Shown in pieces: positions 32,633 to 49,520 of a stretch of DNA of 64,000 nt. Numbering within the stretch: the first letter of the stretch is position 1; the number at the start of each line of letters is the position of its first letter. Position numbers and translations under genes: made by a program. Origin of the DNA: Paracoccaceae bacterium (GTDB lineage: Bacteria > Pseudomonadota > Alphaproteobacteria > Rhodobacterales > Rhodobacteraceae); the NCBI GenBank assembly GCA_027486345.1, contig JAIXPH010000021.1:1-64000 (forward strand), written 5' to 3'. The notes beneath the pieces were generated by a model. That model worked only from the letters and a program-made list of their open reading frames with translations, was not told the DNA's origin and searched no databases.

Positions 32633-33550
32633 TTAGCCCGGAAAATCCAGATAGTTCTTGCGCATCATGGCGGGGGAGGTGCCGTAGCCCGCCTTGAACT
32701 GTGCGTAGAACTGGCTCATGGAATTGAAGCCCGCCGCCTCGGCCACCGATGATATCGCCATCGTGCTTTCCACCAAAAGCGCCCGCGCCCGCATCAGGCG
32801 CATGCGGGTGACGAACTGCGTCATCGGCACCTGCATCACCCGGGTGAAGATCGACTGGGCATAGGTTTCATGCAGACCCGTCACCGCCGCGATGTCGCGG
32901 TTGCGCAGGGGCTGTTCCAGATGTTCAAGGATATGGCGCACCATCGCCACGACGTGCCGGATATGCGCCGAACTCAGCGCGCGATCCGCCCCCATTTCAT
33001 GCTGCGGCAGGCGCAGGAAATCGAATGGCTCCAGTGCGGCGCGGCGGAAGAGGGCGTTCAACTCCATCTTCACCACCTCGGTCCGTTCGAAATCGCCGCT
33101 GCGGTAATCGGCATACCAGCGCCGCACCTGATCCTGCGAGCAGAGCGATTCCGGCAAGGCCACCATGCCGCGCCCGATCAGCGCCACCTGCAGCGCCATG
33201 ATGTAAGGCATCACCATGAAGGCATCGAGGGGCAGGTAGATGTTGCACAGCTTGTTCGGCCCCGGTCCGGTGGGGGTGACTTGGGTCAACTGGTGCGGCA
33301 CCCCGGCCCAGAAGATCACCAGCCGGTTCGCGGGCAGTCGGACGATCCCGCCGTCGAAATCATAGGTCATTTCGAAATCGACGGCGAAGTTGGCCTCGAT
33401 ATGCCCGTGCCAATGCGGCTGGGTCATCGTCACCGGTTCAAAGATGCGGATGCCGAAGCGGCCAAAGGCCTTTTGCTGCGAATAGAATCGCCGGTCATGG
33501 CCCGGCACCGGAACCCGGGCGCGAGGGGTGGCTTCAGCTCTCGATTCCAT
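32633..33550 (-). CDS. AraC-family regulator of the alpha-galactoside locus (AgpT/MelR-like)
   Basis: 305 aa. The N-terminal cupin sensor domain includes PVTMTQPHWHGHIEANFAVD, in which histidines line the sugar pocket. The C-terminal two helix-turn-helix domain has RDIAAVTGLHETYAQSIFTR and SSVAEAAGFNSMSQFYAQFKAGYGTSP. It diverges from the oligosaccharide importer gene 178 bases away and is its likely activator, as AgpT and MelR are for alpha-galactoside genes. ATG at 33550 is preferred to a TTG at 33595. Confidence 0.87.
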   Translation of the reverse strand: MESRAEATPRARVPVPGHDRRFYSQQKAFGRFGIRIFEPVTMTQPHWHGHIEANFAVDFEMTYDFDGGIVRLPANRLVIFWAGVPHQLTQVTPTGPGPNKLCNIYLPLDAFMVMPYIMALQVALIGRGMVALPESLCSQDQVRRWYADYRSGDFERTEVVKMELNALFRRAALEPFDFLRLPQHEMGADRALSSAHIRHVVAMVRHILEHLEQPLRNRDIAAVTGLHETYAQSIFTRVMQVPMTQFVTRMRLMRARALLVESTMAISSVAEAAGFNSMSQFYAQFKAGYGTSPAMMRKNYLDFPG

Positions 33551-33727
33551 GGTCGTTGCGCCCCGATCTGAGGATTCCGGAAAAGAAGGTGGCAATCTGA
33601 TATTGTCGCCCCGGCACCCCCTGACGCAAGGTTAATTTGCCGAGGGTGGAGGAGACTCGAAGCGCCAGACCCCGGCCACGACAAGAAAAAGGGAAACCCG
33701 GCCGCGCCTGCGGCCAAGGGAGGAGAC

Positions 33728-35800
33728 ATGACGATGCATGCCCGACGCGCTGCTGTTGCAGCGCTATTGTTGAGTGTATCCGCAAGCGCCGTGTGGGCCG
33801 AAATGGCCGCACCCACCGCGCCGCCGGAAGCGCCGAAGTTTGATGCCCAGACCGAACCGCTCTATGTCGCCCGGTCCGACATCTTCGAATACAAGGCCCT
33901 GCCGTCCTATTCCGAACCGGCTTGGGTCACGGCATTTGTGGATGCCGGAAAACTGCCTCCCGTGGCGGAACGCCTGCCCAAGGAACCCTTGGTCTACAAG
34001 ACCGCCAACATGCCCGACGGTCCCGGCGTTTACGGTGACGTGATGCGCCATGTGATCGGCGGCCGTCCTGAAGGCTGGAACTTCTGGGCCGGTCAGTCCT
34101 ATGGCTGGGGCGGGATCGATATCGGTCTGGTGGAATGTCTGACCCGCACTGGGCCGCTCTTCACCGTCAAGGCCGAAGACCTGCAACCGATGCCGAACCT
34201 TGCCAAGTCCTGGGAATGGTCCGAGGACGGCAAGACCCTGACCGTGCACTTGATCGAAGGCGCGAAATGGTCTGACGGCGATCCCTTCGACACCGAGGAC
34301 ATCGACTTCTACTGGAACGACGTGATCCTCGATCCCGAAGTGACCCCGCTGATGGGCGCGGCAGAGGCGACCTACAACAACGCCAAGCTGGAAATCACTG
34401 ACGCCTATACGTTCAAGCTGACCTTCGACACGGCCTTCCCCGAGTCGGTGCTTTACAACATGGCCTATGGGAACTTCTGCCCCGGCCCGAGCCATATCCT
34501 CAAGGCCAAGCATCCCAAGCATGGCGGCGAAAGCTATGAGGCGTTCCAGAAAGCCTTCCCGTCCGACATGATGAACTTCCCCGTCATGGGCGCCTGGGCC
34601 GTGGTGGAGCATCGCCCCGATGACATCGTGGTGCTGCGCCGCAATCCCTATTACTGGAAGGTGGACGAAACCGGCCAGCAACTGCCCTATCTGGACGAGA
34701 TGCACTATCGCCTGTCCACATGGGGGGATCGTGACGTTCAGGCCGTGGCGGGGACGGGGGACTTCTCCAACCTCGAGCAGGCGGAAAACTACGTCGAAAG
34801 CCTGAAGAAGGCCGCCGATCCTGCCAGCCCGGCGCGTCTGGCCTTTGGTCCGCGCACCATCGGCTACACGATGTATCCCAACCTGTCCGGTAACGGTTGG
34901 GGGGAACCCGATGCCCGTGGGCAGGCCGTGCGCGAGTTGAACCGCAACCTCGATTTCCGCAAGGCGATCAGCTATGCGGTGGACCGTCAGCGGTTGGGCG
35001 AAAGCCTTGTGAAGGGTCCGTTCACCACGCAGTATCCGGGCGGCATCTATGCAGGCACGCCCTACTATGATGCGGCCTCGACCGTGTTCTATCCCTACTC
35101 GGTGGACAGCGCGAAAGAGGCGCTGAAGGCGGCTGGGCTGGAAGACAGCGACGGCAACGGCTTTGTCAACCTGCCGGGCAGCGAGGATCTGAACGTCACC
35201 TTGCTGACCCAATCGGACTACACCACCGACAAGAACCTTGCCGAAGGTGTAGTGGCGATGATGGCTGACGCCGGGGTGAAGGTCACGCTGAACGCACTGA
35301 CCGGCAAGGACTTCGACAACGCCCGCGACAGCGGCAAGTTCGACTGGATCATCATCCGCAACGGCACCGAGCTGATCACCGTGGTGCAAAACACCGCCGC
35401 ACTGGCCCCGACCGGTCCGTCGACGGATGTGAACCACCGCGCCAACGGTGCCGGAGAGATGGACCTACTGCCCTATGAGGAAGAGATGGTGAAAACCGTC
35501 AACGCCTTCATCGGGTCGCGCGATCCGGCAGAGCGGCTGGCGCTGATGAAAACCTATCAGAAGCTCTATACCGAAAACCTCGACGGGATTGGTCTGACGG
35601 CCTATCCGGGCGCGCTGATCGTGAACAAGCGCTTTGCCAACATCCCGGCGGGTGCGCCCATCTTCATGTACAACTGGGCCGAGGACAACATCATCCGCGA
35701 ACGTGTCTTCGTTCCGGCTGACAAGCAGATCGGCGCAGAACTGCACCCGAACACGCTGCCCGGCGAATTGGGCGGTGCGGGTCCGGTCTCGGTGAACTGA
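33728..35800 (+). CDS. Oligosaccharide ABC transporter substrate-binding protein (AgpA-like)
   Basis: 690-aa periplasmic family 5 binding protein. A signal peptide (1-24, ending SAVWAE) precedes the binding domains. Family 5 marks are LAKSWEWSEDGKTLTVHLIEGAKWSDGDPFD and FRKAISYAVDRQRL. Family 5 proteins bind peptides or oligosaccharides; melA downstream points to alpha-galactosides such as melibiose or raffinose, as for rhizobial AgpA. ATG at 33728 follows GGGAGGAG. A stem-loop (35823-35846) separates it from the permease genes. Confidence 0.85.
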   Translation: MTMHARRAAVAALLLSVSASAVWAEMAAPTAPPEAPKFDAQTEPLYVARSDIFEYKALPSYSEPAWVTAFVDAGKLPPVAERLPKEPLVYKTANMPDGPGVYGDVMRHVIGGRPEGWNFWAGQSYGWGGIDIGLVECLTRTGPLFTVKAEDLQPMPNLAKSWEWSEDGKTLTVHLIEGAKWSDGDPFDTEDIDFYWNDVILDPEVTPLMGAAEATYNNAKLEITDAYTFKLTFDTAFPESVLYNMAYGNFCPGPSHILKAKHPKHGGESYEAFQKAFPSDMMNFPVMGAWAVVEHRPDDIVVLRRNPYYWKVDETGQQLPYLDEMHYRLSTWGDRDVQAVAGTGDFSNLEQAENYVESLKKAADPASPARLAFGPRTIGYTMYPNLSGNGWGEPDARGQAVRELNRNLDFRKAISYAVDRQRLGESLVKGPFTTQYPGGIYAGTPYYDAASTVFYPYSVDSAKEALKAAGLEDSDGNGFVNLPGSEDLNVTLLTQSDYTTDKNLAEGVVAMMADAGVKVTLNALTGKDFDNARDSGKFDWIIIRNGTELITVVQNTAALAPTGPSTDVNHRANGAGEMDLLPYEEEMVKTVNAFIGSRDPAERLALMKTYQKLYTENLDGIGLTAYPGALIVNKRFANIPAGAPIFMYNWAEDNIIRERVFVPADKQIGAELHPNTLPGELGGAGPVSVN

Positions 35801-35898: not shown

Positions 35899-36927
35899 AT
35901 GCTGCAATTCCTCGGCATTCGTCTGATGCAGGCCATCCCGGTGCTTCTGGTGATGAGCATCATCACCTTCATCATCATCCAAGCCCCGCCCGGCGACTAC
36001 GGTGACTTCATCCGCACCAACATGATCGTGCAGGGCAACGCCACGACCGAAGCCGCCAACCGCGCCGCCGAGGCCTACCGTGAGGCGAATGGCCTGAATG
36101 ACCCCTTGGTGCTGCAATATTTCCGTTGGATCTGGGGGATCGTGACCCGCGCCGATTTCGGCCAGTCCTATGCCTATAACAAGCCCGTGCTGGATGTGGT
36201 GCTGCAACGCCTGCCGCCGACCATCGCCATCGCCTTGACCTGCCACCTCTTGGCCACGCTGATCGGTGTGACTTTCGGCATCATCGCCGCGACCCGGCAA
36301 TACACCTGGATCGACACGGTGCTGTCCTTCGTCGCCTTTCTGGGCATGACCATCCCGCGGTTTCTGCTGGCTTTGGTCATCCTGTACCTGCTGGCCTACA
36401 AGCTGAACGTGCAGGAGATCGGGTCGTTCTATTCCTCGCGCTATGGCGGGCAGCCCTATTGGGAAGGCTTCCTTGATTTCAACTGGGGCAAGCTCTGGAA
36501 CCTGATCCAGCATGTCTGGCCCGTGGTCGCCGTCGCCACCATCGGCGGTTTGGCCTATAACATGCGGGTGATGCGGGCGAACCTCTTGGACACGCTGAAC
36601 GCGCAATACGTGGAAACCGCCCGCGCCAAGGGGCTATCCGAGGGCGCCGTGGTGATGCGACACGCCGTGCCCAATGCGCTGCATCCCTTGGTGGCCTATC
36701 AGGGCGTGGTCCTGCCTTATATGCTGACCGGTGAGATCGAGGTGGCCATCGTCTTTGGCCTTGCCACCATCGGCCCGGCCATCGTGGGGTCGATGAACAT
36801 CGGCGATGTCTATGTGACCGCGACCCTTTTGCTGGTGCTGGGGGCCACGCTGATCATCGGCAATATCATCGCCGACGTTCTTTTGGTGCTGCTTGATCCG
36901 CGCATCCGGGTGGGGGGCAACGCATGA
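35899..36927 (+). CDS. Oligosaccharide/peptide ABC transporter permease (AgpB-like)
   Basis: 342-aa DppB-type permease with six helices. The first is IRLMQAIPVLLVMSIITFIII, and the periplasmic segment DYGDFIRTN follows. The EAA-type loop YVETARAKGLSEGAVVMRHAVPNALHPL docks the ATPase. Its stop overlaps the next permease start by 4 bases (ATGA). It forms the inner-membrane channel for the family 5 binding protein encoded upstream. Confidence 0.88.
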   Translation: MLQFLGIRLMQAIPVLLVMSIITFIIIQAPPGDYGDFIRTNMIVQGNATTEAANRAAEAYREANGLNDPLVLQYFRWIWGIVTRADFGQSYAYNKPVLDVVLQRLPPTIAIALTCHLLATLIGVTFGIIAATRQYTWIDTVLSFVAFLGMTIPRFLLALVILYLLAYKLNVQEIGSFYSSRYGGQPYWEGFLDFNWGKLWNLIQHVWPVVAVATIGGLAYNMRVMRANLLDTLNAQYVETARAKGLSEGAVVMRHAVPNALHPLVAYQGVVLPYMLTGEIEVAIVFGLATIGPAIVGSMNIGDVYVTATLLLVLGATLIIGNIIADVLLVLLDPRIRVGGNA

Positions 36928-38051
36928 GCCTGTCGCAACACGAAGGCGAGGTCGCCGATACCCGCCTCTCTGCCGCCAACAGCCACAGCCAAAGCTACCC
37001 CGCGCTGGTCTGGCGCAGGTTCCGCAAATCGGTTCCGGGGATGCTGGGGCTGATCCTTGTCGGCACGCTGTTGGTGGTGTCGGTCTTTGCCGATTTCGTG
37101 GCCCCTGTGGACCCCAACGACGCCAGCACCGCCTTTGCGCCGCCGGATCGGATTTCCTTCTTTACGCCCGATGGGTTCACCCTCTGGCCTGTCGCCTATC
37201 CCATCGTGGAAACCGAAGAGTTAGACCCCATCACCTTCCAACCGCTGATCGGCCCGGATTTCGCCAACCCCCGCCCGCTGGCCCTGTTTGCCAAGAGTGA
37301 GCCTTATGAGATGTGGGGCTTTATCCCGATGGAGCGGCGGTTGATCGGCACGGCGGATGGCACGACGCTGCACATCCTCGGCACCGACAAGCTGGGCCGC
37401 GATATCCTGTCGCGCGGAATTCACGGCAGCCGGATCACGCTGATCATCGCCCTAACCTCGATCACGCTGATCACCATCGCGGGGACCTTGCTGGGCATCG
37501 CCTCGGGTTATCTGGGCGGCAAGTTTGACCTGTGGTTTCAGCGGCTTGTCGAGATCATCCTCGCCTTTCCACAATTGCCGCTTTACCTGACACTGACCAC
37601 GCTGATCCCGGTGACGGCGCCATCTTCGGTGTTCATCGCCTTTGTGATCCTTGTGATTTCGGGCCTTGGTTGGGCGCAACTCAGCCGAGAGGTGCGCTCC
37701 AAGACCATGTCGATGGCGCGGATCGAATATGTGCGCGCCGCGATGGCGGTGGGGGCAGGGGATGGGCGGATCATCACCCGCCACATCCTGCCCAATGTGC
37801 TGTCCCATGTGATCGTCTCGATCACCTTGGGCATCCCGGCGATTGTGCTGCTGGAAAGTTTCCTTGGTTATCTGGGCTTTGCCGTGAAACCGCCGCTGAT
37901 TTCCTGGGGGTTGATGCTGCAAGACGCGGGGACCTTCAGCGTGATCGGCTCTTATCCGTGGATCATGTCGCCGGTCGGTTTCGTTCTTCTGGCCGTGTTC
38001 GCATTCAACGCGTTGGGCGATGGCCTGCGCGATGCCGTTGACCCCTATTGA
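36924..38051 (+). CDS. Oligosaccharide/peptide ABC transporter permease (AgpC-like)
   Basis: 375-aa DppC-type permease. After a cytoplasmic leader (1-30) comes the first helix (GMLGLILVGTLLVVSVFADFVAP). An unusually long periplasmic insert follows (about 65-145), then GTDKLGRDILSRGIHGSRITLIIAL, typical of the family. The EAA loop is YVRAAMAVGAGDGRIITRHILPNVL. It pairs with the preceding permease and is followed 7 bases later by the ATPase gene. Confidence 0.88.
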   Translation: MSLSQHEGEVADTRLSAANSHSQSYPALVWRRFRKSVPGMLGLILVGTLLVVSVFADFVAPVDPNDASTAFAPPDRISFFTPDGFTLWPVAYPIVETEELDPITFQPLIGPDFANPRPLALFAKSEPYEMWGFIPMERRLIGTADGTTLHILGTDKLGRDILSRGIHGSRITLIIALTSITLITIAGTLLGIASGYLGGKFDLWFQRLVEIILAFPQLPLYLTLTTLIPVTAPSSVFIAFVILVISGLGWAQLSREVRSKTMSMARIEYVRAAMAVGAGDGRIITRHILPNVLSHVIVSITLGIPAIVLLESFLGYLGFAVKPPLISWGLMLQDAGTFSVIGSYPWIMSPVGFVLLAVFAFNALGDGLRDAVDPY

Positions 38052-38058
38052 GGCTGCC

Positions 38059-39672
38059 ATGACCCAGGATTTCGTCATTCAGGCCAAGAACATCGGGGTG
38101 TCGTTCAAAGTGGACGGCGGCACGATCGAGGCTGTCCGCGATGTGTCGTTCACCCTGCTCAAGGGCCAGACCATCGCCTTGGTCGGCGAAAGCGGCAGCG
38201 GAAAGTCCGTGACCGCCCGCGCCATCATGCGGCTGTTGTCCAAACGCGCTGTCGTGTCGGACCGCACGGAAATCCTCTATGGTGGCAAGAACATGGCCCG
38301 GTTGGGCGATGCCGAAATGCGCCGCCTGCGCGGCAACCGGCTGACGATGATCTTTCAGGAACCGATGTCGTCCTTGAACCCGGTCTATACCGTCGGCACG
38401 CAGATCGCGGAAATCCTGCGGATTCATCAGAAGATCACCCGCAAGGCCGCCCTAGCCCGCGCGGTGGAATTGCTGCGCGAGGTGCAGATACCGGACCCCG
38501 AGTCCCGCGTGAACCAATATCCGCACCAGCTTTCCGGTGGGCAGCGCCAGCGCGTGATGATCGCGATGGCCTTGGCCAATAACCCCGATGTGCTGATCGC
38601 GGATGAACCCACCACGGCGCTGGATGTGACGGTGCAGGCGGAAATCCTGAACCTGATCAAGGCGCTGAAGGAAAAGACCGGGATGGCCGTCATCCTGATC
38701 ACCCATGATCTGACCGTGGTGCGCCAGTTCGCCGACCATGTTTACGTCATGCAACACGGCGAGGTGCGCGAAGAAGGCCCGACCGAGGAATTGTTCACCA
38801 ATCCGCAGCACCCCTACACCAAGCGCCTGCTGGGGTCAGAACCTAAGGGCCGCGCGGACCCCGCGCAGGTGGGCGATGAAACCGTCCTTGCAGGCCGCGA
38901 TGTGCGTGTGACCTTCACCCTGCGCAAGGGCGGGGCGTTCCGCGGCAGTTACCATGACCTGCAAGCAGTGGATGGCCTGTCGCTCTCGGTCAAACGCGGC
39001 GAGACTTTGGGTCTGGTCGGCGAATCCGGCAGCGGCAAAACCACCTTTGGGCAGGCGCTTCTACGGCTGAACAAACTGAACGGCGGGCAGGTGGATTTTC
39101 TGGGCCAGCGCATTGACGGGCTGGACCGCAAGGGGATGAAACCCTTCCGCCAGCGCATGCAGATCGTGTTTCAAGACCCGTTCTCTAGCCTGAACCCCCG
39201 CATGTCGGTGCGCCAGATCATCGAAGAAGGCATGATCGTCAACGGCATCGGCGCCACCCGCGAAGACCGGTTGGAGCGTGTCCGCCAAGCCCTGCGCGAT
39301 GCCGGCATGCCCGACACCATCCTGTCGCGCTTCCCGCATGAGTTTTCCGGCGGCCAGCGCCAGCGCCTTGCCATCGCACGCGCCATCGCGTTGGAGCCAG
39401 AGTTCATCCTGCTGGATGAACCCACCAGCGCCTTGGATTTGTCCGTGCAGGCCCAGATCATCGAACTGCTGCGCAAGTTGCAGCGCGAAAAGGGCCTGAG
39501 TTACCTGTTCATCAGCCATGACCTCAAGGTCGTCCGTGCCCTGTGCCACCGCGTCATCGTCATGCAAAATGGCAAGATCGTCGAGCAAGGCCCGGTCGAA
39601 GAGGTGCTTGGCGCCCCCGCCACCGATTACACCCGCCGCCTCGTGAAGGCGGCTTTCGATATCGCCGTTTAG
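38059..39672 (+). CDS. ABC transporter ATPase with two fused nucleotide-binding domains
   Basis: 537 aa with two DppD/DppF-like ATPase domains in one chain. Domain 1 has Walker A GESGSGKSV, signature [14 protein letters not shown] and Walker B VLIADEPTTALD. Domain 2, from about residue 275, has GESGSGKTT, FSGGQRQRLAIARA and FILLDEPTSALD. Each has the oligopeptide C-terminal extension. It energises import through both permeases. ATG at 38059 follows GAGG. The melA gene starts 16 bases later in the same operon. Confidence 0.9.
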   Translation: MTQDFVIQAKNIGVSFKVDGGTIEAVRDVSFTLLKGQTIALVGESGSGKSVTARAIMRLLSKRAVVSDRTEILYGGKNMARLGDAEMRRLRGNRLTMIFQEPMSSLNPVYTVGTQIAEILRIHQKITRKAALARAVELLREVQIPDPESRVNQYPHQLSGGQRQRVMIAMALANNPDVLIADEPTTALDVTVQAEILNLIKALKEKTGMAVILITHDLTVVRQFADHVYVMQHGEVREEGPTEELFTNPQHPYTKRLLGSEPKGRADPAQVGDETVLAGRDVRVTFTLRKGGAFRGSYHDLQAVDGLSLSVKRGETLGLVGESGSGKTTFGQALLRLNKLNGGQVDFLGQRIDGLDRKGMKPFRQRMQIVFQDPFSSLNPRMSVRQIIEEGMIVNGIGATREDRLERVRQALRDAGMPDTILSRFPHEFSGGQRQRLAIARAIALEPEFILLDEPTSALDLSVQAQIIELLRKLQREKGLSYLFISHDLKVVRALCHRVIVMQNGKIVEQGPVEEVLGAPATDYTRRLVKAAFDIAV

Positions 39673-39688
39673 AAGCTTGGAGCCAGCC

Positions 39689-41056
39689 ATGGGCAAAACC
39701 GTCATCACCTTCATCGGCGCAGGGTCCGCCGTTTTCACCAAGAACATCGCCGGGGACATCCTGTCGCGCCCCGCGCTTGCCAATGCCGAAATCCGGCTGA
39801 TGGACATCAACCCCGAACGGCTGCGCGAATCCGAGGTGATCGTCGGCAAACTGGCGCAAACCCTTGGCGGCAAGGCCTCGGTCACCACCTATACCGATCA
39901 GCGCCGCGCCTTGACCGGGGCGAATTTTGTGGTCTGCTGCTTTCAGGTTGGCGGCTATGACCCCTGCACCATCACGGATTTTGAGGTGCCAAAGGCCTAC
40001 GGCCTGCGCCAGACCATCGCCGACACGCTCGGCATCGGCGGCATCATGCGCGGCATCCGCACCGTCCCGCATCTGTGGAGCATCTGCGAAGACCTGACCC
40101 AGGTCGCCCCAAACGCCATCATGCTGCAATACGTCAACCCGATGGCGATCAACACCTGGGCCATCGCGGCGAAGTATCCCAAAATCCGGCAAGTGGGCCT
40201 GTGCCATTCCGTCCAAGGCACGGCTTGGGAACTCGCCCGTGATCTGGATATCCCGGTTGAGGATATTCGCTACCGCGCGGCGGGCATCAACCACATGGCG
40301 TTCTACCTGACGTTTGAGCACAAACAGCCCGACGGCAGCTTCCGCAACCTCTATCCCGACCTTGTGAAAGGCTACCGCGAAGGCCGCTTCCCCAAGCCCA
40401 GCCACTGGAACCCGCGCTGCCCGAATAAGGTGCGCTATGAGATGCTGACCCGGCTTGGCCATTTCGTCACCGAAAGCTCTGAGCATTTCGCCGAATACAC
40501 CCCGTGGTTCATCAAGCGCGACCGTCCCGACCTGATTGAAAAATTCGGCATCCCGCTGGATGAATATCCCAAGCGCTGCGTCGAACAGATCGCCCGCTGG
40601 AAGAAAGAGGCCGAAAAGCTCGCCTCCGCCAATGAGGTGGAGGTGAAAGAAAGCCATGAATACGCCAGCCAGATTGTCAACTCGGTCGTGACCGGCGAGC
40701 CTTCGGTCATTTACGGCAACATCGGCAACCGTGGCTATATCCCGCAACTGCCCGATGGCTGCGCGGTTGAGGTGCCGGTTCTGGTTGATCACATGGGCCT
40801 GCAACCGACCGTGGTGCATGACATCCCGCCGCAACTGATTGCGCTGATGCGGACCAACATCAACGTGCAGGATTTGACGGTGCAGGCGCTGCTGACCGAA
40901 AACCCCGAACACATCTACCACGCGGCCATGCTGGACCCGCATACCGGCGCGGAACTCGACCTTGATCAGATTTGGTCGCTCACGCATGACCTTCTAGCCG
41001 CGCATGGCGATTGGCTGCCGGAATGGGCGCGCATTCCGCAGCGCAAGGCGGGCTAA
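39689..41056 (+). CDS. melA: Alpha-galactosidase, glycoside hydrolase family 4
   Basis: 455 aa closely resembling E. coli MelA over its whole length. It is a cytoplasmic NAD- and Mn-dependent enzyme that cleaves alpha-galactosides such as melibiose. FIGAGSAVFTKN is the NAD fold; ADTLGIGGIMRGIRT, VGLCHSVQGTA (metal cysteine) and AGINHMAFYL (metal histidine) follow. EHFAEYTPWFIK and CVEQIARWKKE are also kept. ATG at 39689 has GGAG 6 bases upstream. It follows the importer genes and is 4 bases from the halogenase-type gene. Confidence 0.93.
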   Translation: MGKTVITFIGAGSAVFTKNIAGDILSRPALANAEIRLMDINPERLRESEVIVGKLAQTLGGKASVTTYTDQRRALTGANFVVCCFQVGGYDPCTITDFEVPKAYGLRQTIADTLGIGGIMRGIRTVPHLWSICEDLTQVAPNAIMLQYVNPMAINTWAIAAKYPKIRQVGLCHSVQGTAWELARDLDIPVEDIRYRAAGINHMAFYLTFEHKQPDGSFRNLYPDLVKGYREGRFPKPSHWNPRCPNKVRYEMLTRLGHFVTESSEHFAEYTPWFIKRDRPDLIEKFGIPLDEYPKRCVEQIARWKKEAEKLASANEVEVKESHEYASQIVNSVVTGEPSVIYGNIGNRGYIPQLPDGCAVEVPVLVDHMGLQPTVVHDIPPQLIALMRTNINVQDLTVQALLTENPEHIYHAAMLDPHTGAELDLDQIWSLTHDLLAAHGDWLPEWARIPQRKAG

Positions 41057-41060
41057 GACC

Positions 41061-42566
41061 ATGTGGCCGCGGCGGATTTGCGTTGTTGGGGGCGGCACGG
41101 CGGGATGGCTCGCCGCGATGATGCTGGGCGACTCTGCCCGTCGCGGCGGTCACCCGTGCGAGGTCACGGTGATTGAAAGCAGCAAGATCGGCACCATCGG
41201 CGTGGGCGAAGGCACCACGGCGGTGTTCCGGCAGATGTTGCAGCACTTCGGTCTGGATGAGATGGATTTTCTGGCCGAAACCGGGGCCACCATCAAATTC
41301 GGCATCCGCCACCGCGATTGGCGGCGCTTGGGGCATTCCTATGACGGGCCGATTGACGATCCCCACCGCGTGACGGGGTTTGAGGTCAACGCGCTGGACG
41401 TCTATCAGGTCTCACGCGGGGAAAGCGTGGGGCAGGTGCATCTGTTCCAGCACCTGCTCTCCCGCAACAAAAGCCCCTTCGCCGATGTTGAGGGGCGTCA
41501 TGTCGCCGTGGGGCCGTTCCATCACGCCTATCACTTTGACCAAGCCTTGGCCGGGAAATGGCTGCGATCCAAGGCCAAAGCCATCGCCACCATCGACGAT
41601 CAGGTCTTGCGGGTGGAACGCCACGCGGAGTCTGGCGACATCACAGCCCTGCACCTTGAGGGCGGCACGCGGGTGGAAGCTGACCTCTTCGTCGATTGCA
41701 CCGGCTTTCGCCGCGCCTTGATCGGGCCGATGGGGGGCGAATGGGTCAGCTACCGCGACATGCTGCCCGTCAACCGCGCGATCCCATTTTGGTTGGACAT
41801 CCCCGAAGGCGAAGAGATTGACCCCTGCACGCTGGCTTGGGCGCAAGGGTCGGGCTGGATGTGGAAAATCCCGACGCAAAGCCGCTATGGCTGCGGCTAT
41901 GTGTTTTCCGACGCCCATATCACCGCCGATCAGGCCAAGGATGAGATTGAGCGTGTCCTTGGCCATCCCATCCATGTCCGCAACGACATCCGCATTGATG
42001 CCGGGCGCTTGGATCGGCAATGGATCGGCAATTGCGTGGCCTTGGGGCTGTCGTCGTCCTTCCTAGAGCCATTGGAGGCGACCTCGATCCACGGGACGGT
42101 GGTGCAGTTGATGCTGCTGGCCTCCGTCCTGCCCAACCCGGATGACCGCGCACGTCTTGCGTTCAATGCCGCATCGGCGCGGCAGGTGGATGATTTCCGC
42201 GATTTCATCCGGCTGCACTATGTCAGCGAACGCCGCGATACCCCGTTCTGGCGCGATGTGGCGGGCAACCTGCCGCCACATCTGGCCGATCGTTTGGCCG
42301 CATGGGGCGGCCGCGTGCCGGGTGCTGCGGATTTCGCGCCCTTCCCGATGGGCCTGCCGCATACCGATCATCACCTGCATGTGCCGGTCTTGGATGGCTT
42401 GGGTCTGTTGGACCCCGCCAAAGCCAAGGCATGGCTGGCGGCGCATCCCAAACTGCGCGCCCAGGCGCGGGCCGAGGCCGCAAAACTGACGGGCGAATAC
42501 AAGCGCGCGGCGGGGCGGGCGATGGGGCATCGGGCGTTTCTGGATGGGCTCAGCGTACCAGCCTAA
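41061..42566 (+). CDS. Flavin-dependent tryptophan halogenase-family protein
   Basis: 501-aa FAD-binding protein of the PrnA/RebH family, which chlorinate or brominate indoles using reduced flavin. VVGGGTAGW (residues 8-16) is the FAD fold. Lys79 in GATIKFGIRHRDW is where the catalytic lysine of PrnA lies. WMWKIP (266-271) is the family WxWxIP motif. FLEPLE (334-339) contains the conserved glutamate. All key residues for halogenation are kept. It starts 4 bases after melA, in one transcript with sugar genes. No flavin reductase gene is adjacent. The substrate is unknown; a role in carbohydrate use is possible but unproven. Confidence 0.85.
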   Translation: MWPRRICVVGGGTAGWLAAMMLGDSARRGGHPCEVTVIESSKIGTIGVGEGTTAVFRQMLQHFGLDEMDFLAETGATIKFGIRHRDWRRLGHSYDGPIDDPHRVTGFEVNALDVYQVSRGESVGQVHLFQHLLSRNKSPFADVEGRHVAVGPFHHAYHFDQALAGKWLRSKAKAIATIDDQVLRVERHAESGDITALHLEGGTRVEADLFVDCTGFRRALIGPMGGEWVSYRDMLPVNRAIPFWLDIPEGEEIDPCTLAWAQGSGWMWKIPTQSRYGCGYVFSDAHITADQAKDEIERVLGHPIHVRNDIRIDAGRLDRQWIGNCVALGLSSSFLEPLEATSIHGTVVQLMLLASVLPNPDDRARLAFNAASARQVDDFRDFIRLHYVSERRDTPFWRDVAGNLPPHLADRLAAWGGRVPGAADFAPFPMGLPHTDHHLHVPVLDGLGLLDPAKAKAWLAAHPKLRAQARAEAAKLTGEYKRAAGRAMGHRAFLDGLSVPA

Positions 42567-43423
42567 ACCGCGCCATCCCGCGTGGCGCGGAATTCCAAGG
42601 GCGACAGCCCGCGATGCCGCCTGAACGCCTTGGCCAGATAGTTGGGATCGGCAAATCCCGCCGCCTTTGCGATATCGGCCACCTTCATCTCGGTCGCCAG
42701 CAAAAGCCGCTCCACCCGGTCCATCCGGCGGGCCAGCACATGATCTGACGGAGCTACGCCATAGGCGGCGGCGAAGCGGCGCACGAAATGCGCCCGGCTC
42801 ATCCCCGCCACCCGCGCCAGCGTGTCCACATGCAGATCGGCGGCAAGGTGACGCTCCACATGCGCCAGCACGCGGGCGAGGGCGGGAGAGGGGGCAATGC
42901 CCGCCGCCGCATCGGCAAAGGCCGCGTCATGCAGGGCACAAAGCGCCGCATACCCCGCCGCCGACGCCTCTGCCGCGTTGGGCACGGGCGGGGAGAGCAA
43001 GCGCAGACAAGCCGCCGCCATTCGCTCCACGGCACCCTCCGACGGAGTCAGCACCGGACCCGCCGCCTCAAGGATGGCGCGGGCCATGCGCAGGGCTTCG
43101 CGGCCGGAGATCAGGAACCAGAAATATTCCCAATGCCCGCCGCGTTCCAGCCAATAGCGATGGGCATGGGGCATGGTCACAAGCATGGTTTTCCCCGGTG
43201 TCAGCCGATGCTTGACCCCGGCATGGTCCAGCCGCCCCTCACCCACCAACGTGTGCTGGATCACCAGAAACGGTGTGGTCCCGCGCGTCAGACCATCCCA
43301 GTTATACACCTCATTCCGGCGCTGCTCATAGCCTGCGGCATTGGTCACCACATGCAGGGCCGACGGTGCCGCGCCGGGAAAACTGCGGATGTCAAAGCCA
43401 TGGGACAGCAGGGCGGAAAGCAT
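42563..43423 (-). CDS. AraC-family regulator
   Basis: About 286 aa. The N-terminal AraC-binding domain (LVIQHTLVGEGRLDHAGVKHRLTPGKTMLVTMPHAHRYW) is a cupin. The C-terminal double helix-turn-helix has VDTLARVAGMSRAHFVRRFAAAYGVAPSDHV and VADIAKAAGFADPNYLAKAFRRHRGLSPLEF. It diverges from the second GH4 gene 85 bases away and probably controls it. Its 3' end overlaps the halogenase-type gene by 4 bases. ATG at 43423 is preferred to TTG at 43435. Confidence 0.86.
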   Translation of the reverse strand: MLSALLSHGFDIRSFPGAAPSALHVVTNAAGYEQRRNEVYNWDGLTRGTTPFLVIQHTLVGEGRLDHAGVKHRLTPGKTMLVTMPHAHRYWLERGGHWEYFWFLISGREALRMARAILEAAGPVLTPSEGAVERMAAACLRLLSPPVPNAAEASAAGYAALCALHDAAFADAAAGIAPSPALARVLAHVERHLAADLHVDTLARVAGMSRAHFVRRFAAAYGVAPSDHVLARRMDRVERLLLATEMKVADIAKAAGFADPNYLAKAFRRHRGLSPLEFRATRDGAV

Positions 43424-43508
43424 GAAATCACCCAAAGGATCACACCTTTACCATACACGGGCAACGCCCCTGCGCCTAGCCTGACCACAGGCAAAAGCGG
43501 AGGATGCC

Positions 43509-44990
43509 ATGAGCTTCAAGATCGCAATCATCGGCGCGGGCAGCGTCGGCTTTACCAAGAAACTCTGTTCCGACATCCTGAAAGTCGCGGAATTTGCCCG
43601 AGGCGGGATCGAGATCGCGCTGACCGATATCAACGCCCATAACCTTGATATGGTGGCGCAGATCATCCGCCGCATCGTGGCGGTGAACAACCTGCCCACC
43701 CGCGTCACCGCCACCACCGACCGTCGCGCGGCGCTGACAGGCGCGCGCTACATCATGAATGTCGTCCGCATCGGCGGGCTAGAGGCGTTTCAATCCGACA
43801 TTTCCATCCCGCTGAAATACGGCGTCGATCAATGCGTGGGCGACACCATCTGCGCGGGCGGCATCCTTTACGGTCAGCGCGGCATCGCCGCCATGATGGA
43901 TTTCTGCAAGGATATCCGTGAGGTGGCCGAACCCGATGCGCTTTTGCTCAACTATGCCAACCCGATGGCGATGATGACTTGGGCCGCGATTGAACATGGC
44001 GGCGTCCGCACGGTGGGCCTGTGCCACGGGGTGCAGAACGGCCATCGTCAGATCGCCGCCGCCCTGCGCGTCCCGATGGAAGAGGTGGACATCGTCTGTT
44101 CCGGCATCAACCACCAGACATGGTATCTGGACATCCGCCACAAGGGCGGCGCGATCGGGGGCCGCAGCATCGGGCGGGATGAACTCATCGCCGCCTTTGA
44201 ATCGCATCCGCTGTTTTCCAAACAGGAAAAGGTGCGGATCGACGTGCTGAAACGCTTTGGCTTTTACTCGACTGAGTCGAACGGTCATTTGTCGGAATAC
44301 CTGCCGTGGTATCGCAAGCGCCCGGATCAGATTCTCGATTGGATCAGCATGGATGAATGGATCCACGGCGAAACCGGCGGCTATCTGCGCTACACCACCG
44401 AAAACCGGAACTGGTTTGAAACCGATTTCCCGGTGTTTCTGGAAGAGGCGGGCAAACCCCTGTCCGACTGGCAGCGCACCGATGAACATGCCAGCCATAT
44501 CCTTGAGGCGCTGGAGACCGGGCGCCCCTATCGCGGGCATTTCAATGTGCGCAATGGCGGGACGATCACCAACCTGCCCGAAGATTGCATCATCGAAAGC
44601 CCCGGCTATGTGGACCGTTTCGGCATCAACATGGTCGAAGGCGTGACCCTGCCCTTGGCCTGTGCGGCGACATGCTCAGCCTCGGTCCACGTCCAACGGA
44701 TGAGCGTGCAGGCCGCGATCACCGGGGATGTGGAACTTCTGAAACAGGCGGTGCTGCATGACCCGCTGGTGGGGGCCATCTGCACGCCCGAGGAAGTGTG
44801 GCAAATGGTCGATGAAATGCTGGTCGCCCAAGCCGCTTGGTTGCCGCAATACGCCCATGCCATCCCGGCGGCGGCAGAGCGTCTGAAAGCGCCCAAGGTT
44901 AAGACCCGCGATTGGGCGGGGGCGGCCCGGCTGGACGTCCGCAGCGTCGAGGATTTGCGCGCCACGAAAAAGGCCAAAGCGACGGCTTAA
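43509..44990 (+). CDS. Glycoside hydrolase family 4, alpha-galactosidase/alpha-glucosidase
   Basis: 493-aa second GH4 enzyme, clearly different from MelA. IIGAGSVGFTKKL binds NAD, NYANPMAMMTW and VGLCHGVQNG supply the metal cysteine, and CSGINHQTWYLDIR the histidine. A Lys/Ala-rich tail ends the protein. The family cleaves alpha- or beta-glycosides by redox-assisted elimination; here alpha-galactosides or alpha-glucosides are likely. GGAGGA precedes ATG at 43509. It diverges from the AraC-type regulator and its end overlaps the metallo-hydrolase gene by 4 bases. Confidence 0.9.
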   Translation: MSFKIAIIGAGSVGFTKKLCSDILKVAEFARGGIEIALTDINAHNLDMVAQIIRRIVAVNNLPTRVTATTDRRAALTGARYIMNVVRIGGLEAFQSDISIPLKYGVDQCVGDTICAGGILYGQRGIAAMMDFCKDIREVAEPDALLLNYANPMAMMTWAAIEHGGVRTVGLCHGVQNGHRQIAAALRVPMEEVDIVCSGINHQTWYLDIRHKGGAIGGRSIGRDELIAAFESHPLFSKQEKVRIDVLKRFGFYSTESNGHLSEYLPWYRKRPDQILDWISMDEWIHGETGGYLRYTTENRNWFETDFPVFLEEAGKPLSDWQRTDEHASHILEALETGRPYRGHFNVRNGGTITNLPEDCIIESPGYVDRFGINMVEGVTLPLACAATCSASVHVQRMSVQAAITGDVELLKQAVLHDPLVGAICTPEEVWQMVDEMLVAQAAWLPQYAHAIPAAAERLKAPKVKTRDWAGAARLDVRSVEDLRATKKAKATA

Positions 44991-45712
44991 ACGCCCTTGC
45001 TGGCCAGCCAATCGGTGATCAACTGGCGGTGCCTTTCCCCGGGATAGCTGGGGAAATGCCCGCCATGCACCACCCGCACCGGCAGTTTCAACAGCCGCTC
45101 CATCGATGCGATGTATTGCGCAGCCTCAAGGCCGGTGGTGCCTTCGATCAACTCGCCATCATAGACGATGTCGCCGGAAAACAGGATGCCGGTGGCCGCC
45201 TCCCACAAGGCAATCCCGCCGGGGGAATGGCCGGGGGTGTGGATCACCTCAAACCGCCGATCGCCAAGGTCCACGATATCGCCATCCCAGAGCAGTCGCG
45301 TCGCGGGCGCGGCAGGCACGGCATAGTGGCTTGCGACGTAGGGTTCTGGCGGCAAGGTGGTGAAGATGTCGTCGGTCACATATTTGTCGGCATAGGTGTT
45401 TTCGCGGGTCGGCGCGCGCATCAGATGCGCCTCGGCCCCGTGGCAGAGACGGCAGCCGAATTCATGATGGCAGCCGATATGGTCAAAATGCGTATGACTG
45501 GCAACGGCTTGCAACGGCCGTTCGGTGACCAGGGGCACGTAATCGCGCAAGGAGACAACCCCCATCCCGCTGTCAACCAGCATATCCCCATCCCGCCCAC
45601 GGATGTGCCAGACGTTGCAGCGGTAGAATTCGCGGATATGCGGCTCGTCGATATGGGTGACGCCATCACCCATGGACCGCAGCCGCCACCAGTCTTTCGG
45701 CTCCGCCCTCAT
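44987..45712 (-). CDS. Metallo-beta-lactamase-fold hydrolase in an ABC importer operon
   Basis: 241 aa. HTHFDH (residues 73-78) is the zinc motif, and later ligands are in HTPGHSPGG, FSGDIVYDG and VVHGGHFPS, so both metal sites look complete. Such enzymes hydrolyse lactones, thioesters or phosphoesters. It is the last gene of the polyamine-type importer operon and overlaps the ATPase gene by 4 bases (ATGA), so it probably acts on the imported compound or its product. Substrate unknown. It converges with the second GH4 gene. Confidence 0.85.
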   Translation of the reverse strand: MRAEPKDWWRLRSMGDGVTHIDEPHIREFYRCNVWHIRGRDGDMLVDSGMGVVSLRDYVPLVTERPLQAVASHTHFDHIGCHHEFGCRLCHGAEAHLMRAPTRENTYADKYVTDDIFTTLPPEPYVASHYAVPAAPATRLLWDGDIVDLGDRRFEVIHTPGHSPGGIALWEAATGILFSGDIVYDGELIEGTTGLEAAQYIASMERLLKLPVRVVHGGHFPSYPGERHRQLITDWLASKGV

Positions 45713-46707
45713 GTGCTCAACACTCCCCAAGTTTCCGCGCCAAGGTCCAGGACCTGCCCCGGCGCGGGCATGGCCGATTGCGGCAGATGTACGACCAGCT
45801 TTAGGTCAGGCGCAGAGACAGGCGCAACATGTGCCCGCACATGCGCGCCGAAAAACGCAGCCTCCAGCACGCGACAGGGGCCGATCCTAAGGGGACCGCT
45901 TTCCGTGATCGCCTCGGGCCGCAGGCAGAGCGTGCCATCGGGCAAGGCCACCGGGCCAAAGGGGGCCTGACCGCCTGCGATGGGGATACGGTTGACCTCT
46001 CCCATGAAACTGGCGGTGAACAGGGTCTTGGGGTGCAGATAAACCTCGCGCGGGGGGCCGTGATCCTCGATCCGGCCGGCGTTCATCACCACGATGCGGT
46101 CGGCAATCGCCATCGCCTCTTCTTGGTCATGGGTCACATGCACAAAGGTTGTGCCGATGCGACGCTGAATCGACTTCAACTCATCCTGCATCTGGCGGCG
46201 CAGTTTCAGATCGAGCGCGCCAAGCGGTTCATCCAGCAGCAGAACATCCGGTTCCACCGCCAAAGCCCGCGCCAAGGCGACCCGCTGGCGCTGCCCGCCC
46301 GACAGCTCATGCGGGCGGCGGTCGCCACGGCCTTCAAGGCCCACCAGCGCCAACATCGCATCTGCCTTTTCGCCGCGCTTGGCCTTTGCAACCCCGCGCA
46401 TCCGCAGACCAAAGGCCACGTTGTCGCGCAGGGTCATATGGGGGAACAAGGCATAGTCCTGAAACACCGTGGTTGTCGGTCGGTGCTGGGGGGCCAAGCC
46501 TGCCATATCGCGCCCGCCGATCCGCACCGCCCCGGCGGTCGGTTCGGCAAAGCCACCGATCAGATTGAGCAGCGTGGTCTTGCCGCAGCCCGATGGCCCC
46601 AGCAGCACCACAAACTCGCCCGCCGCAATCTCGAGGCTGACATTGTCCAGCACGGTGCTTGCGCCAAAGCGCTGTGAGACGGCCTGGATTTGCACATCGG
46701 CGGTCAT
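45709..46707 (-). CDS. Spermidine/putrescine-type ABC transporter ATP-binding protein
   Basis: 332 aa. Walker A GPSGCGKTT, signature [14 protein letters not shown], Walker B VLLLDEPLGALD and switch VHVTHDQEEAMAIADR are intact. The C-terminal TOBE-like domain carries LCLRPEAITESGP. It resembles PotA-type ATPases. ATG at 46707 overlaps the upstream permease stop (ATGA), and the metallo-hydrolase gene overlaps its own stop. It powers the two PotB/PotC-like permeases. Confidence 0.88.
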   Translation of the reverse strand: MTADVQIQAVSQRFGASTVLDNVSLEIAAGEFVVLLGPSGCGKTTLLNLIGGFAEPTAGAVRIGGRDMAGLAPQHRPTTTVFQDYALFPHMTLRDNVAFGLRMRGVAKAKRGEKADAMLALVGLEGRGDRRPHELSGGQRQRVALARALAVEPDVLLLDEPLGALDLKLRRQMQDELKSIQRRIGTTFVHVTHDQEEAMAIADRIVVMNAGRIEDHGPPREVYLHPKTLFTASFMGEVNRIPIAGGQAPFGPVALPDGTLCLRPEAITESGPLRIGPCRVLEAAFFGAHVRAHVAPVSAPDLKLVVHLPQSAMPAPGQVLDLGAETWGVLST

Positions 46708-47471
46708 TTCGCCCTCCGGAAGACAAGGATTTCCAACAGGATGACCAAGGTGACCGACACCAGAAACACCAGCGACCCAACGGCATTGGTGGCAGGCGAG
46801 AGGCCCGATTTCAGCATGGACCAAATCTCCACCGGCAGGGTGACGTCAAAACGGGTGAGCAGGAAGGCGATGATGAACTCATCCCAGCTAAAGGTGACCG
46901 ACAGGAAGAACGCCGCCGCCAAAGGCATCGCCAGCATGGGGGCCGAGACCAGCGCCAGCACCTGCCATTCCGCCGCGCCCAGATCGCGCGCGGCGCGTTC
47001 GGCGTTTTTCTGATGGTCCCCCATCGCGGCGTAAAGGATGGCAAAGCACAGGGGCAGGTTGATGACCACATGGCCAATCCCGGCGGTCCAAAGCGACAAG
47101 CGCACCCCGGTCAGGTTAAAGAGGTTCAACAGACCCAAGGCCACGATCAGGTAACTGACCGTCATCGGCGCGATCAGCACCCCGCGCATCAAGGCCGATC
47201 CCGGCAAGGCCACCCGCGCCAGCGCATGCGCGGCCAGAAACCCCAAGACCAGCGCAATCAACGAGGACACCACCGCCACCAAAAAGGAGTGGCCAAGCGC
47301 GGCCATCAAGTCGCCGTCGCCCAGCACCTTTTCATACCAGCGGAACGACACCCCCTTGAACGGCGGCACCGGCAAACGGCCATCCTGAAAGGAAAACGCC
47401 ACCAGCACCGCGACGGGCAGGAAAACAAAGACATAGGCCAGCGCCAGATAAAGCCATGAAAGCACGCGCAC
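46704..47471 (-). CDS. Spermidine/putrescine-type ABC permease (PotC-like)
   Basis: 255-aa inner-membrane permease with six helices (first LYLALAYVFVFLPVAVLVAFSF). The EAA loop is RAARDLGAAEWQVLALVSAPM. It starts with GTG at 47471, 3 bases after the stop of the PotB-like gene. It pairs with that permease to form the channel for the PotD/F-like binding protein. Confidence 0.88.
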   Translation of the reverse strand: MRVLSWLYLALAYVFVFLPVAVLVAFSFQDGRLPVPPFKGVSFRWYEKVLGDGDLMAALGHSFLVAVVSSLIALVLGFLAAHALARVALPGSALMRGVLIAPMTVSYLIVALGLLNLFNLTGVRLSLWTAGIGHVVINLPLCFAILYAAMGDHQKNAERAARDLGAAEWQVLALVSAPMLAMPLAAAFFLSVTFSWDEFIIAFLLTRFDVTLPVEIWSMLKSGLSPATNAVGSLVFLVSVTLVILLEILVFRRAK

Positions 47472-47474
47472 GAT

Positions 47475-48329
47475 CTACACCCGATCCAGCCGCAGCCAGC
47501 GGCCACAGGCGAAATAGGCCAGCGTCACCACGGCCATCAAAACCACCGACAGGGCCGAGGCGAGGGGGAAATTCCCGCTGCGCCCCAGTTGCAGCATGAT
47601 CAGTTGCGGCACGGTCAGTTCCGAATTTCCGCCAAGGATTTGCGGCGTGATGTAATCCCCGATGCACAGCACAAAGGTCAAAAACGCCCCCGTCACCACG
47701 CCCGGCAGCGTGAGCGGCAAGATCACATGGCGAAAGGTCTGCCACCGCCCCGCCCCAAGGTCCGCCGCGGCACGGGCATAGTTGGGTGAAAGCTGGATCA
47801 GGTTGGCGTAAATCGTCAGCGTCAGAAGCATAACGAAGAAATGCACGAAGCCGATCACGGTCGCGGTGCGGGTTGCGGAAATCTCCAACGGCTCCGCTAT
47901 CGCCCCCACGGCCATCAAGCCGCGATTGACCACGCCGTTTTGGCCCAGAACCAGCAGCCACGCATAGGACCGCACCACGTAAGACGTCCAGAACGGCAGC
48001 ACCGCCAGCAAAAGCGCCAGCCGTTGCCACCGCGCAGGCACCCGAAAGGCTATGATCGCGGCCAAAGGCCACGCCAGCACCACCGACAGCGCCGTGACCA
48101 GAACCGTGATTTCCAGACTGTTCAGCAATGCGCCAAACAGGGTGGGGTCGGTCAGAAAGCGCGTGTAATTGCCGGGGTCCAGCGCGGGGACGATCTGCCG
48201 ACCCTCCATCCGCGCGAAGGACAGCGCCAGCATCGCAAGGAAGGGCAGGGCGAAGAATGCCCCCGTCCACAAAAGGGCCGGGGCCACCAGACCCCAGCCA
48301 AGCCGATGCTCGCGTGCCTTGAGGGTCAC
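47475..48329 (-). CDS. Spermidine/putrescine-type ABC permease (PotB-like)
   Basis: 284-aa permease with six helices (first LVAPALLWTGAFFALPFLAMLALSF). The typical PotB segment FWTSYVVRSYAWLLVLGQNGVVN and EAA loop RAAADLGAGRWQTFRHVILPL are present. The start is GTG at 48329, overlapping the binding-protein stop by 4 bases (GTGA). The longer open frame upstream is in the binding-protein gene and is a shadow. Confidence 0.88.
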   Translation of the reverse strand: MTLKAREHRLGWGLVAPALLWTGAFFALPFLAMLALSFARMEGRQIVPALDPGNYTRFLTDPTLFGALLNSLEITVLVTALSVVLAWPLAAIIAFRVPARWQRLALLLAVLPFWTSYVVRSYAWLLVLGQNGVVNRGLMAVGAIAEPLEISATRTATVIGFVHFFVMLLTLTIYANLIQLSPNYARAAADLGAGRWQTFRHVILPLTLPGVVTGAFLTFVLCIGDYITPQILGGNSELTVPQLIMLQLGRSGNFPLASALSVVLMAVVTLAYFACGRWLRLDRV

Positions 48330-49378: not shown

Positions 49379-49445
49379 AAGGGTGTCTCCATGTCGGGGG
49401 TGGGGCACCTCTGCCGGGTGCCTTTGGAAAAAGAATTGAGTTCGG

Positions 49446-49473
49446 TCAAATTTGAAGTCAACATCAAATTTCA
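49446..49473. promoter_or_regulatory. Putative TetR operator and importer promoter
   Basis: A perfect palindrome TCAAATTTGA (49446-49455) and a near copy TCAAATTTCA (49464-49473) are 18 bases apart. Between them, on the minus strand, is TTGACT (49461-49456), a good -35 box for the importer operon. The perfect palindrome lies just downstream of it, where a bound repressor would block RNA polymerase. Confidence 0.65.
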
Positions 49474-49520
49474 GGCAAAATGAAAACCATCGCCAAAACA
49501 ACCGCTTGAACAGGCTCGCC

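Follow-up and report, generated by a model that had tools for sequence, protein, structure and literature searches.

The window, the whole 64,000-nucleotide stretch of Paracoccaceae bacterium DNA that was analysed, contains on one strand a family 5 binding protein gene, two permease genes, a double ATPase gene, a GH4 alpha-galactosidase gene (GH4a) and a flavin-dependent halogenase homologue (HAL), followed by an AraC-type regulator gene on the opposite strand and a second GH4 gene, GH4b (Table 1). The Pfam matches of the neighbouring genes confirmed that HAL lies downstream of a family 5 sugar importer on the same strand, as the original prediction had it. That prediction also placed HAL 4 bases after melA: the 4-nt gap is there, between the end of GH4a (41056) and the start of HAL (41061), but the gene upstream is GH4a, and the melA counterpart is more likely GH4b (43509-44990), since the pSymB gene of GH4b type adjoins a divergent AraC gene, where the available part of PMC4254191 places agpT and melA. 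A longer reading frame for HAL, beginning with an ATG at 41004, would overlap the GH4a gene; the start at 41061 was preferred because the alignment with relatives supports it.

Table 1. Genes of the alpha-galactoside locus in the window, with the evidence for each assignment.
Feature	Coordinates	Strand	Evidence
AraC-type regulator, MelR-like, divergent from importer	32633..33595	-	PF12833; relatives often match at same place
Family 5 solute-binding protein, AgpA-type	33728..35800	+	PF00496, 213.5 bits; 63% identity in pSymB
ABC permease B	35899..36927	+	PF00528; 69% identity in pSymB
ABC permease C	36924..38051	+	PF00528, PF12911; 65% identity in pSymB
Double ABC ATPase	38020..39672	+	PF00005 twice; 71% identity in pSymB
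GH4 alpha-galactosidase a (GH4a), TTG start as listed	39677..41056	+	PF02056, PF11975; 75% identity in pSymB
Flavin-dependent halogenase homologue (HAL)	41061..42566	+	PF04820; motifs; AlphaFold pLDDT 94.3; Foldseek matches to tryptophan halogenases
Second AraC-type regulator, between HAL and GH4b	42563..43435	-	43% to AraC gene beside GH4b in pSymB
GH4 alpha-galactosidase b (GH4b)	43509..44990	+	PF02056, PF11975; PRK15076, 562 bits; 73% identity in pSymB

The best NCBIfam match of the regulator that is divergent from the importer was MelR, with a score (160.7 bits, residues 43-313) under the cut-off of 253. GH4a matched the alpha-galactosidase model PRK15076 with 658 bits (cut-off 486). For the regulator between HAL and GH4b, the AraC-family matches among the 25 matches listed were all under their cut-offs, and the gene can be called AgpT-like by its place. 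An adjoining locus on the minus strand (44987-49567) encodes an ABC importer, whose binding protein is of the SBP_bac_8 type, and a protein with the metallo-beta-lactamase fold; by eye, the importer resembles polyamine importers.

The locus was compared by tblastn with the agp-mel region on pSymB of Sinorhizobium meliloti RU11/001, where the importer and both GH4 genes have counterparts at 63-75% identity and an AraC gene is 43% identical to the second regulator of the window; the pSymB gene names used here were assigned from gene place and the available part of PMC4254191, this stretch of the RU11/001 record being unannotated. The two regions differ in gene order, as GH4b comes first and GH4a last in pSymB, and the window, unlike S. 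meliloti agp-mel, has an additional MelR-like AraC gene. No halogenase match was found by tblastn in the 19 kb fetched of the RU11/001 agp-mel region. The gene set of the Agp/Mel system is complete in the window (family 5 binding protein, two permeases, ATPase, GH4 alpha-galactosidases and AraC regulator), and on sequence grounds the locus is an Agp/Mel-type system for alpha-galactoside uptake and cleavage.

Sequence, fold and active site of HAL

The 501-residue HAL product matched the PF04820 profile with 355 bits (E = 7.8e-106, residues 5-418; cut-off 21) and was the sole PF04820 match in the 4.08-Mb, 97.8% complete assembly. Within the source genus, HAL was found in 3 of 19 genomes, the source genome included. 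Sites read from the sequence were GGGTAG from residue 10 (GxGxxG), Lys79, WMWKIP (266-271) and FLEPLE (334-339). The AlphaFold model (pLDDT 94.3, pTM 0.92) has short strands at 137-143 and 146-149, around the first of the loops that are short in BrvH-like halogenases. A Foldseek search with this model gave 50 listed rows, all of them tryptophan-type halogenases (TMq 0.79-0.89, 26-33% identity), with a Thal variant first by E-value and PyrH, Tar14 and BrvH among the others. HAL fits PF04820 on every sequence test made, the Fx.Px.Sx.G motif excepted, and, judged by profile, motifs and predicted fold, is a real member of this family of flavin-dependent halogenases.

To describe the active site, we compared the 86 aligned members of the HAL clade (see below) with characterized enzymes; the articles cited here and below were available in part. 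In PrnA, Lys79 and Glu346 catalyse the reaction and His101, Phe103 and Trp455 stack the indole (PMC5659210); the K79A exchange abolishes the reaction, and E346Q makes it two orders of magnitude slower (PMC5727139). Lys79 is present in 84 of the 86 clade rows (one Arg, one gap; the L075 sequence is frameshifted at its N-terminus and the L074 sequence is without a match there), while Trp266, Trp268, Ile270, Glu339, Thr341 and Ser342 are each found in all 86 and Pro271 in 85. The columns of PrnA His101 and Phe103, which were read from alignments to SttH, AbeH, Tar14 and Th-Hal and not from PrnA itself, hold Gly96 (86/86) and Ile98 (84/86) in the HAL clade, followed by Asp99 (86/86), so that the His-Pro-Phe of those four enzymes is Gly-Pro-Ile in HAL. 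The Phe-to-Ile exchange is the telling change, because 13 outgroup halogenases keep Phe throughout (13/13) but have His in only 5 cases (Asn in 6). Further positions specific to the clade are His127, Phe129, His154, Gln161, Trp228, Phe243, Trp244, Gly345 and His434. Free tryptophan is an unlikely substrate of HAL because Gly96 and Ile98 replace the indole sandwich and the clade has the other residues of its own.

The tryptophan 5/6-halogenases PyrH, SttH, Tar14, Th-Hal and AbeH are among the nearest solved structures to HAL by both sequence and fold. These enzymes act on tryptophan (Tar14 comes from taromycin biosynthesis), whereas HAL lies in a sugar-uptake locus and the indole sandwich typical of PrnA and PyrH is absent from it. 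Its pocket residues set HAL apart from tryptophan halogenases of the PrnA/PyrH kind. A role as tryptophan halogenase for a secondary metabolite was rejected as a candidate on the same two counts, the sugar locus and the lost pocket residues.

The recognition motif of flavin halogenases is Fx.Px.Sx.G (PMC7336383). HAL keeps the Phe (334) and the Pro (337) of this motif, whereas its Ser is replaced by Ala340 and its Gly by Ser342; across the 86 rows of the clade, Ala (69) or Ser (17) occurs at position 340, and Ser alone at position 342. BrvH and two Xcc halogenases are active despite a Ser for the motif Gly (PMC7336383). The halide site of HAL, Thr341-Ser342 (86/86), corresponds to Thr351-Ser352 of BrvH, an enzyme for which bromide is the preferred halide, whereas RebH has Thr and Gly (PMC5945002). 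HAL is 32-33% identical to BrvH and resembles the BrvH/Xcc4156 type in belonging to PF04820 and in keeping the Lys and Glu; it shares the Ser at the second halide position with BrvH, Xcc4156 having Asn there. Of the residues in contact with the six-membered indole ring, one is substituted in BrvH (PMC5945002), whereas in the HAL clade the His/Phe pair is gone. The motif WxWxIP has been suggested to prevent monooxygenation (PMC5945002).

The original prediction had described HAL as a catalytically complete homologue that keeps Lys79, WMWKIP and FLEPLE as residues needed for halogenation. All three sites are present at the positions claimed, and completeness holds for Lys79, Glu339 and WxWxIP; the description needs a caveat at Ala340 and Ser342, which depart from the motif at two of the four Fx.Px.Sx.G positions.

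Linkage of HAL relatives to alpha-galactoside genes

Relatives of HAL were taken from one pattern scan of genome contigs, and the best 80 of 89 confirmed relatives (48-97% identity), a choice that favours close relatives, were used for comparison of loci; a GH4 or importer gene was scored as present when a tblastn match to the window gene covered at least a quarter of the query. A GH4 gene lay within the fetched stretch at 73 of the 80 loci and within 1.5 kb of HAL at 72, and at L041 a GH4 gene with 52% identity was found 8.8 kb from HAL. The importer binding protein was present in the fetched stretch at 59 loci. GH4a stood immediately 5' of HAL on the same strand at 59/80 loci, and GH4b followed no more than 1.5 kb 3' of HAL on the same strand at 39/80. 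When only loci flanked by 8 kb or more on either side were considered (n = 49; many others are cut by contig ends), 43 had GH4 and 41 had the binding protein. Across these loci HAL was kept through several gene orders.

Seven loci were without GH4: one of these (L065) is cut 186 nt upstream, five belong to one Devosia subclade, and one is the Trueperaceae MAG locus L074. All five Devosia genomes with unlinked HAL carry GH4a (73-74%) and the binding protein (65-66%) elsewhere, with a second GH4 match near GH4a in each; in one genome of this subclade (G412), a stop codon lies inside a match to these Agp/Mel genes. Neither a close GH4a (best 26%) nor a close binding protein (34%) was found in the L074 genome, and in the L048 genome GH4a was present and a close binding protein was not found. 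A distant importer type, with binding protein and permeases at 41-47% identity, occurred in 11 of the 52 complete loci with GH4a and HAL still in place, GH4a being 52% identical in L041 and 62-72% in the rest. The linkage of HAL to one particular importer is weakened, because these 11 loci pair HAL and GH4a with the distant type. In four Devosia-group loci (L052, L053, L056 and L064), a ParE-like toxin and CopG-like gene pair lies at about 9275-9884, directly upstream of HAL and between HAL and GH4b.

To look for partner genes, clusters were built over the 80 loci from a home-made choice of ORFs that excluded those shorter than 90 aa, and the 19 non-core clusters found in at least 4 loci were inspected, 17 by Pfam (C26 remained unmatched) and two (C15 and C17) by eye; 466 clusters found in 3 loci or fewer fell outside this set. 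Recurring genes included GH36 melibiase (6), 2-keto-3-deoxygalactonokinase (9), KDPG/KHG-type aldolase (7), IlvD/Edd-type dehydratase (6), short-chain dehydrogenase (9), GH42 beta-galactosidase (5) and aldose 1-epimerase (4). Several of these clusters are, by their sequence matches, galactoside or galactose breakdown genes, which we take to represent the De Ley-Doudoroff galactose route. Neither a flavin reductase gene nor a TonB receptor gene was found among the window genes searched or among the 19 recurring clusters, and the same clusters held no aromatic-catabolism gene and no peptide-precursor gene (peptides under 90 aa would escape). A TonB-type locus for HAL was rejected for lack of a TonB gene in either set.

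The alpha-galactoside context originally claimed for HAL is right, and the linkage counts make it far stronger than a single locus could show. A search of homologues, proposed with that claim, found HAL relatives mostly beside GH4 and importer genes rather than unlinked to sugar genes. The statement that no flavin reductase gene is nearby likewise agrees with the window genes searched by Pfam.

Halogenases in other loci

Four plasmid regions with halogenases were viewed: two TonB-linked sugar loci of sphingomonads, one region from Sulfitobacter and a nif region from Sinorhizobium. The Sulfitobacter region has the same ABC operon with halogenase as the window. The TonB-linked halogenases of the sphingomonads likewise lie inside an oligosaccharide locus, accompanied in Qipengyuania by two further alpha-amylase-family genes and a GH97 gene and in Sphingomonas by a GH3 gene; they differ from HAL in that uptake is by a TonB receptor, in being ~37% identical to it and in falling outside the HAL clade in the tree. 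These two plasmids bear out the earlier remark that halogenases occur near TonB glycan loci elsewhere in alphaproteobacteria. A coupling of HAL to the GH4 redox mechanism as such was rejected, since the distant sphingomonad halogenases sit with alpha-amylase-family, GH97 or GH3 genes. 'Tryptophan halogenase' is the annotated name of many PF04820 genes, and 28 of the 30 plasmid records listed (of 91) were so named or unannotated.

As a control, GH4 and importer genes were looked for near other PF04820 genes of the same family of bacteria, 34-38% identical to HAL; none of the 9 stretches fetched, each 7-16 kb long, gave a match (0/9).

Co-occurrence, loss and evolution of HAL

We determined the co-occurrence of HAL and GH4a in a sample of 394 genomes of the same family (Rhodobacteraceae), using identity limits of 48% for the HAL clade and 53% for GH4a that were chosen by eye at gaps in the tables; the resulting counts of 92, 19, 39 and 14 were made by hand. 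A near-full-length HAL-clade copy (at least 48% identity) was present in 19 of the 394 genomes, the next full-length group lying at 33-38%, and GH4a (at least 53%) was present in 92. All 19 HAL genomes were within the 92 GH4a genomes (hypergeometric probability 2e-13, kinship not corrected). The 19 exclude three genomes with fragments only, G331, G208 and G133, the last of which has its fragment at a contig end and no GH4a match. Among 39 genomes with a distant PF04820 homologue only, 14 had GH4a at 53% identity or more, compared with 92/394 overall; this association is much weaker than the 19/19 for HAL, yet above background.

The majority of GH4a genomes (73/92) were without near-full-length HAL. 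Two genomes, G112 and G328, have the importer and both GH4 genes and no HAL; in G182, HAL and the alpha-galactoside system are on separate contigs, and in G331 HAL is in pieces. HAL is thus an optional accessory that has been gained and lost, not a core part of the alpha-galactoside system, and an obligatory role in alpha-galactoside use was rejected on the basis of the 73 genomes. In one locus of genome G208 (L098, 6246-8093), the regulator and GH4a (91%) are kept and a 31-residue HAL remnant follows GH4a; no importer match lies between regulator and GH4a, both importer and HAL having been lost.

A quick maximum-likelihood tree was built from 99 proteins, and a branch with an SH-aLRT value of 99 separates the 86 members of the clade from 13 other halogenases; the outgroup branches are long, and SH-aLRT was the sole support measure. 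The dN/dS values of HAL against its two nearest relatives were 0.045 and 0.058, rising to 0.10-0.22 against remoter copies, for which dS nears saturation. HAL is under strong purifying selection. Over the 52 complete loci, pairwise distances of HAL and of the operon genes were correlated with Spearman coefficients of 0.69-0.76, compared with 0.82-0.93 for the operon genes among themselves. In Tabrizicola flagellatus (L037), the importer and GH4a group with Tabrizicola/Rhodobacter loci, while HAL (10001-11488) falls with the copies of Gemmobacter (support 100) and Rubellimicrobium (87); at this locus HAL is 61% identical, the binding protein 80% and GH4a 90%, and by these groupings HAL seems to have been swapped in its slot independently of the rest of the operon. 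Two Deinococcota (Trueperaceae) MAG contigs, L041 and L074, fall inside the Rhodobacteraceae part of the HAL tree, a placement that reflects either inter-phylum transfer or wrong binning.

Discussion

We propose, tentatively and at a probability of about 0.42, that HAL is a halide-oxidising halogenase that serves as a dedicated, optional accessory of the Agp/Mel-type system and acts on a compound derived from alpha-galactosides or belonging to their pathway. FADH2 would be supplied by a general cellular reductase, and reduced flavin and O2 would form a flavin hydroperoxide in HAL. The enzyme would then oxidise a halide by means of its BrvH-like Thr-Ser site, bromide being favoured over chloride because this site is shared with BrvH, and hypohalous acid would be passed to Lys79, with Glu339 aiding attack on an electron-rich group. 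The most likely target would be a small molecule, either imported in the form of an alpha-galactoside or produced by the galactoside pathway, and HAL would act alongside the GH4 enzymes, presumably as a cytoplasmic protein. Free tryptophan is probably not the target. A galactoside-linked aromatic is a possible substrate; it lacks positive support because aromatic-catabolism genes are absent from the 19 recurring clusters and the His/Phe pair is replaced. We regard it as unlikely that the clade is a sugar-dedicated halogenase branch, with its pocket rebuilt for galactosides or their derivatives instead of indoles, that would halogenate, or oxidise through hypohalite, a sugar conjugate in carbohydrate catabolism.

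A lesser but real possibility is that HAL has drifted to a non-halogenating oxidation, in which the Lys/Glu pair would serve the chemistry of a flavin hydroperoxide or of an oxidase, with a sugar or sugar-derived enol of the galactoside pathway as substrate. The aromatic sandwich is lost, with the invariant Gly96 and Asp99 and the near-invariant Ile98 found instead; Asp99, His127, His154, Gln161, Trp228, Trp244 and His434, all specific to the clade, are of kinds that may often be sugar-binding; Ala340 and Ser342 depart from the halogenase motif; and aromatic genes are absent from the recurring clusters. However, the WxWxIP motif suggested to prevent monooxygenation is kept in 85/86 rows, BrvH halogenates with a Ser at the same halide position (PMC5945002 for both), and the retained Lys79 and Glu339 would suit halogenation better. 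It seems improbable that HAL halogenates a target of the cell's own, such as an indole, a peptide or a protein, with alpha-galactosides acting only as a cue, for example of a plant or alga near by. The HAL clade is tied to galactoside genes and not to any single candidate target, and TonB and peptide-precursor genes are absent from the recurring clusters (peptides under 90 aa aside), even though BrvH/Xcc4156-type halogenases, whose sites are open, have been proposed to take peptides (PMC7336383), some distant relatives adjoin TonB receptors or SapC proteins, and HAL of Devosia can be unlinked while the alpha-galactoside system persists.

That the HAL cassette is a mobile hitchhiker, one that often lands in this operon with no functional tie to it, is very improbable. 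Such behaviour might produce the looser tracking of operon distances by HAL, the apparent exchange of HAL alone in L037 and the repeated loss of the gene; it is hard to reconcile with strong purifying selection, a single clade retained through several gene orders, and genome-level co-occurrence with alpha-galactoside genes even where HAL is unlinked.

Among the open-licence papers listed, judged by title and the start of the abstract, none on a link between halogenases and sugar loci was found, a result that argues only weakly for the link being unpublished; the available portion of PMC8269204 does not refer to TonB, sugars or transporters. Within the open-licence literature searched, a halogenase branch that is bound to one defined ABC-type alpha-galactoside system and has its own residue signature is new. 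According to the available part of PMC7336383, it is not known on what BrvH and three Xanthomonas halogenases act in nature. The HAL clade ties one halogenase branch to one defined nutrient class and a characterised transport system, and this linkage makes a halogenase role outside secondary metabolism testable by growth on common substrates such as melibiose and raffinose and by deleting genes in strains of Devosia or Rhodobacteraceae that can be cultured. As a catalyst, too, a halogenase whose pocket has been rebuilt could be of use.

Additional observations

Three individual halogenase genes were also noted in the course of the comparison. The L074 contig contains a 1014-aa ORF (8237-11281) in which residues 589-918 match PF04820 positions 74-415 and the N-terminal part of the profile is unmatched; it may represent a fusion, a frameshift or an assembly error, and a GH42-type gene lies ~4 kb off. 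On a Sinorhizobium garamanticum plasmid, a distant halogenase (L118, 8980-10500) is located 3' of nif/fdxB and 5' of an ACC deaminase gene. In another member of the source's family (L111, 5047-8358), a distant halogenase (35%) directly follows genes for a SapC protein and a radical SAM protein, a group that is possibly a peptide-modifying cluster.
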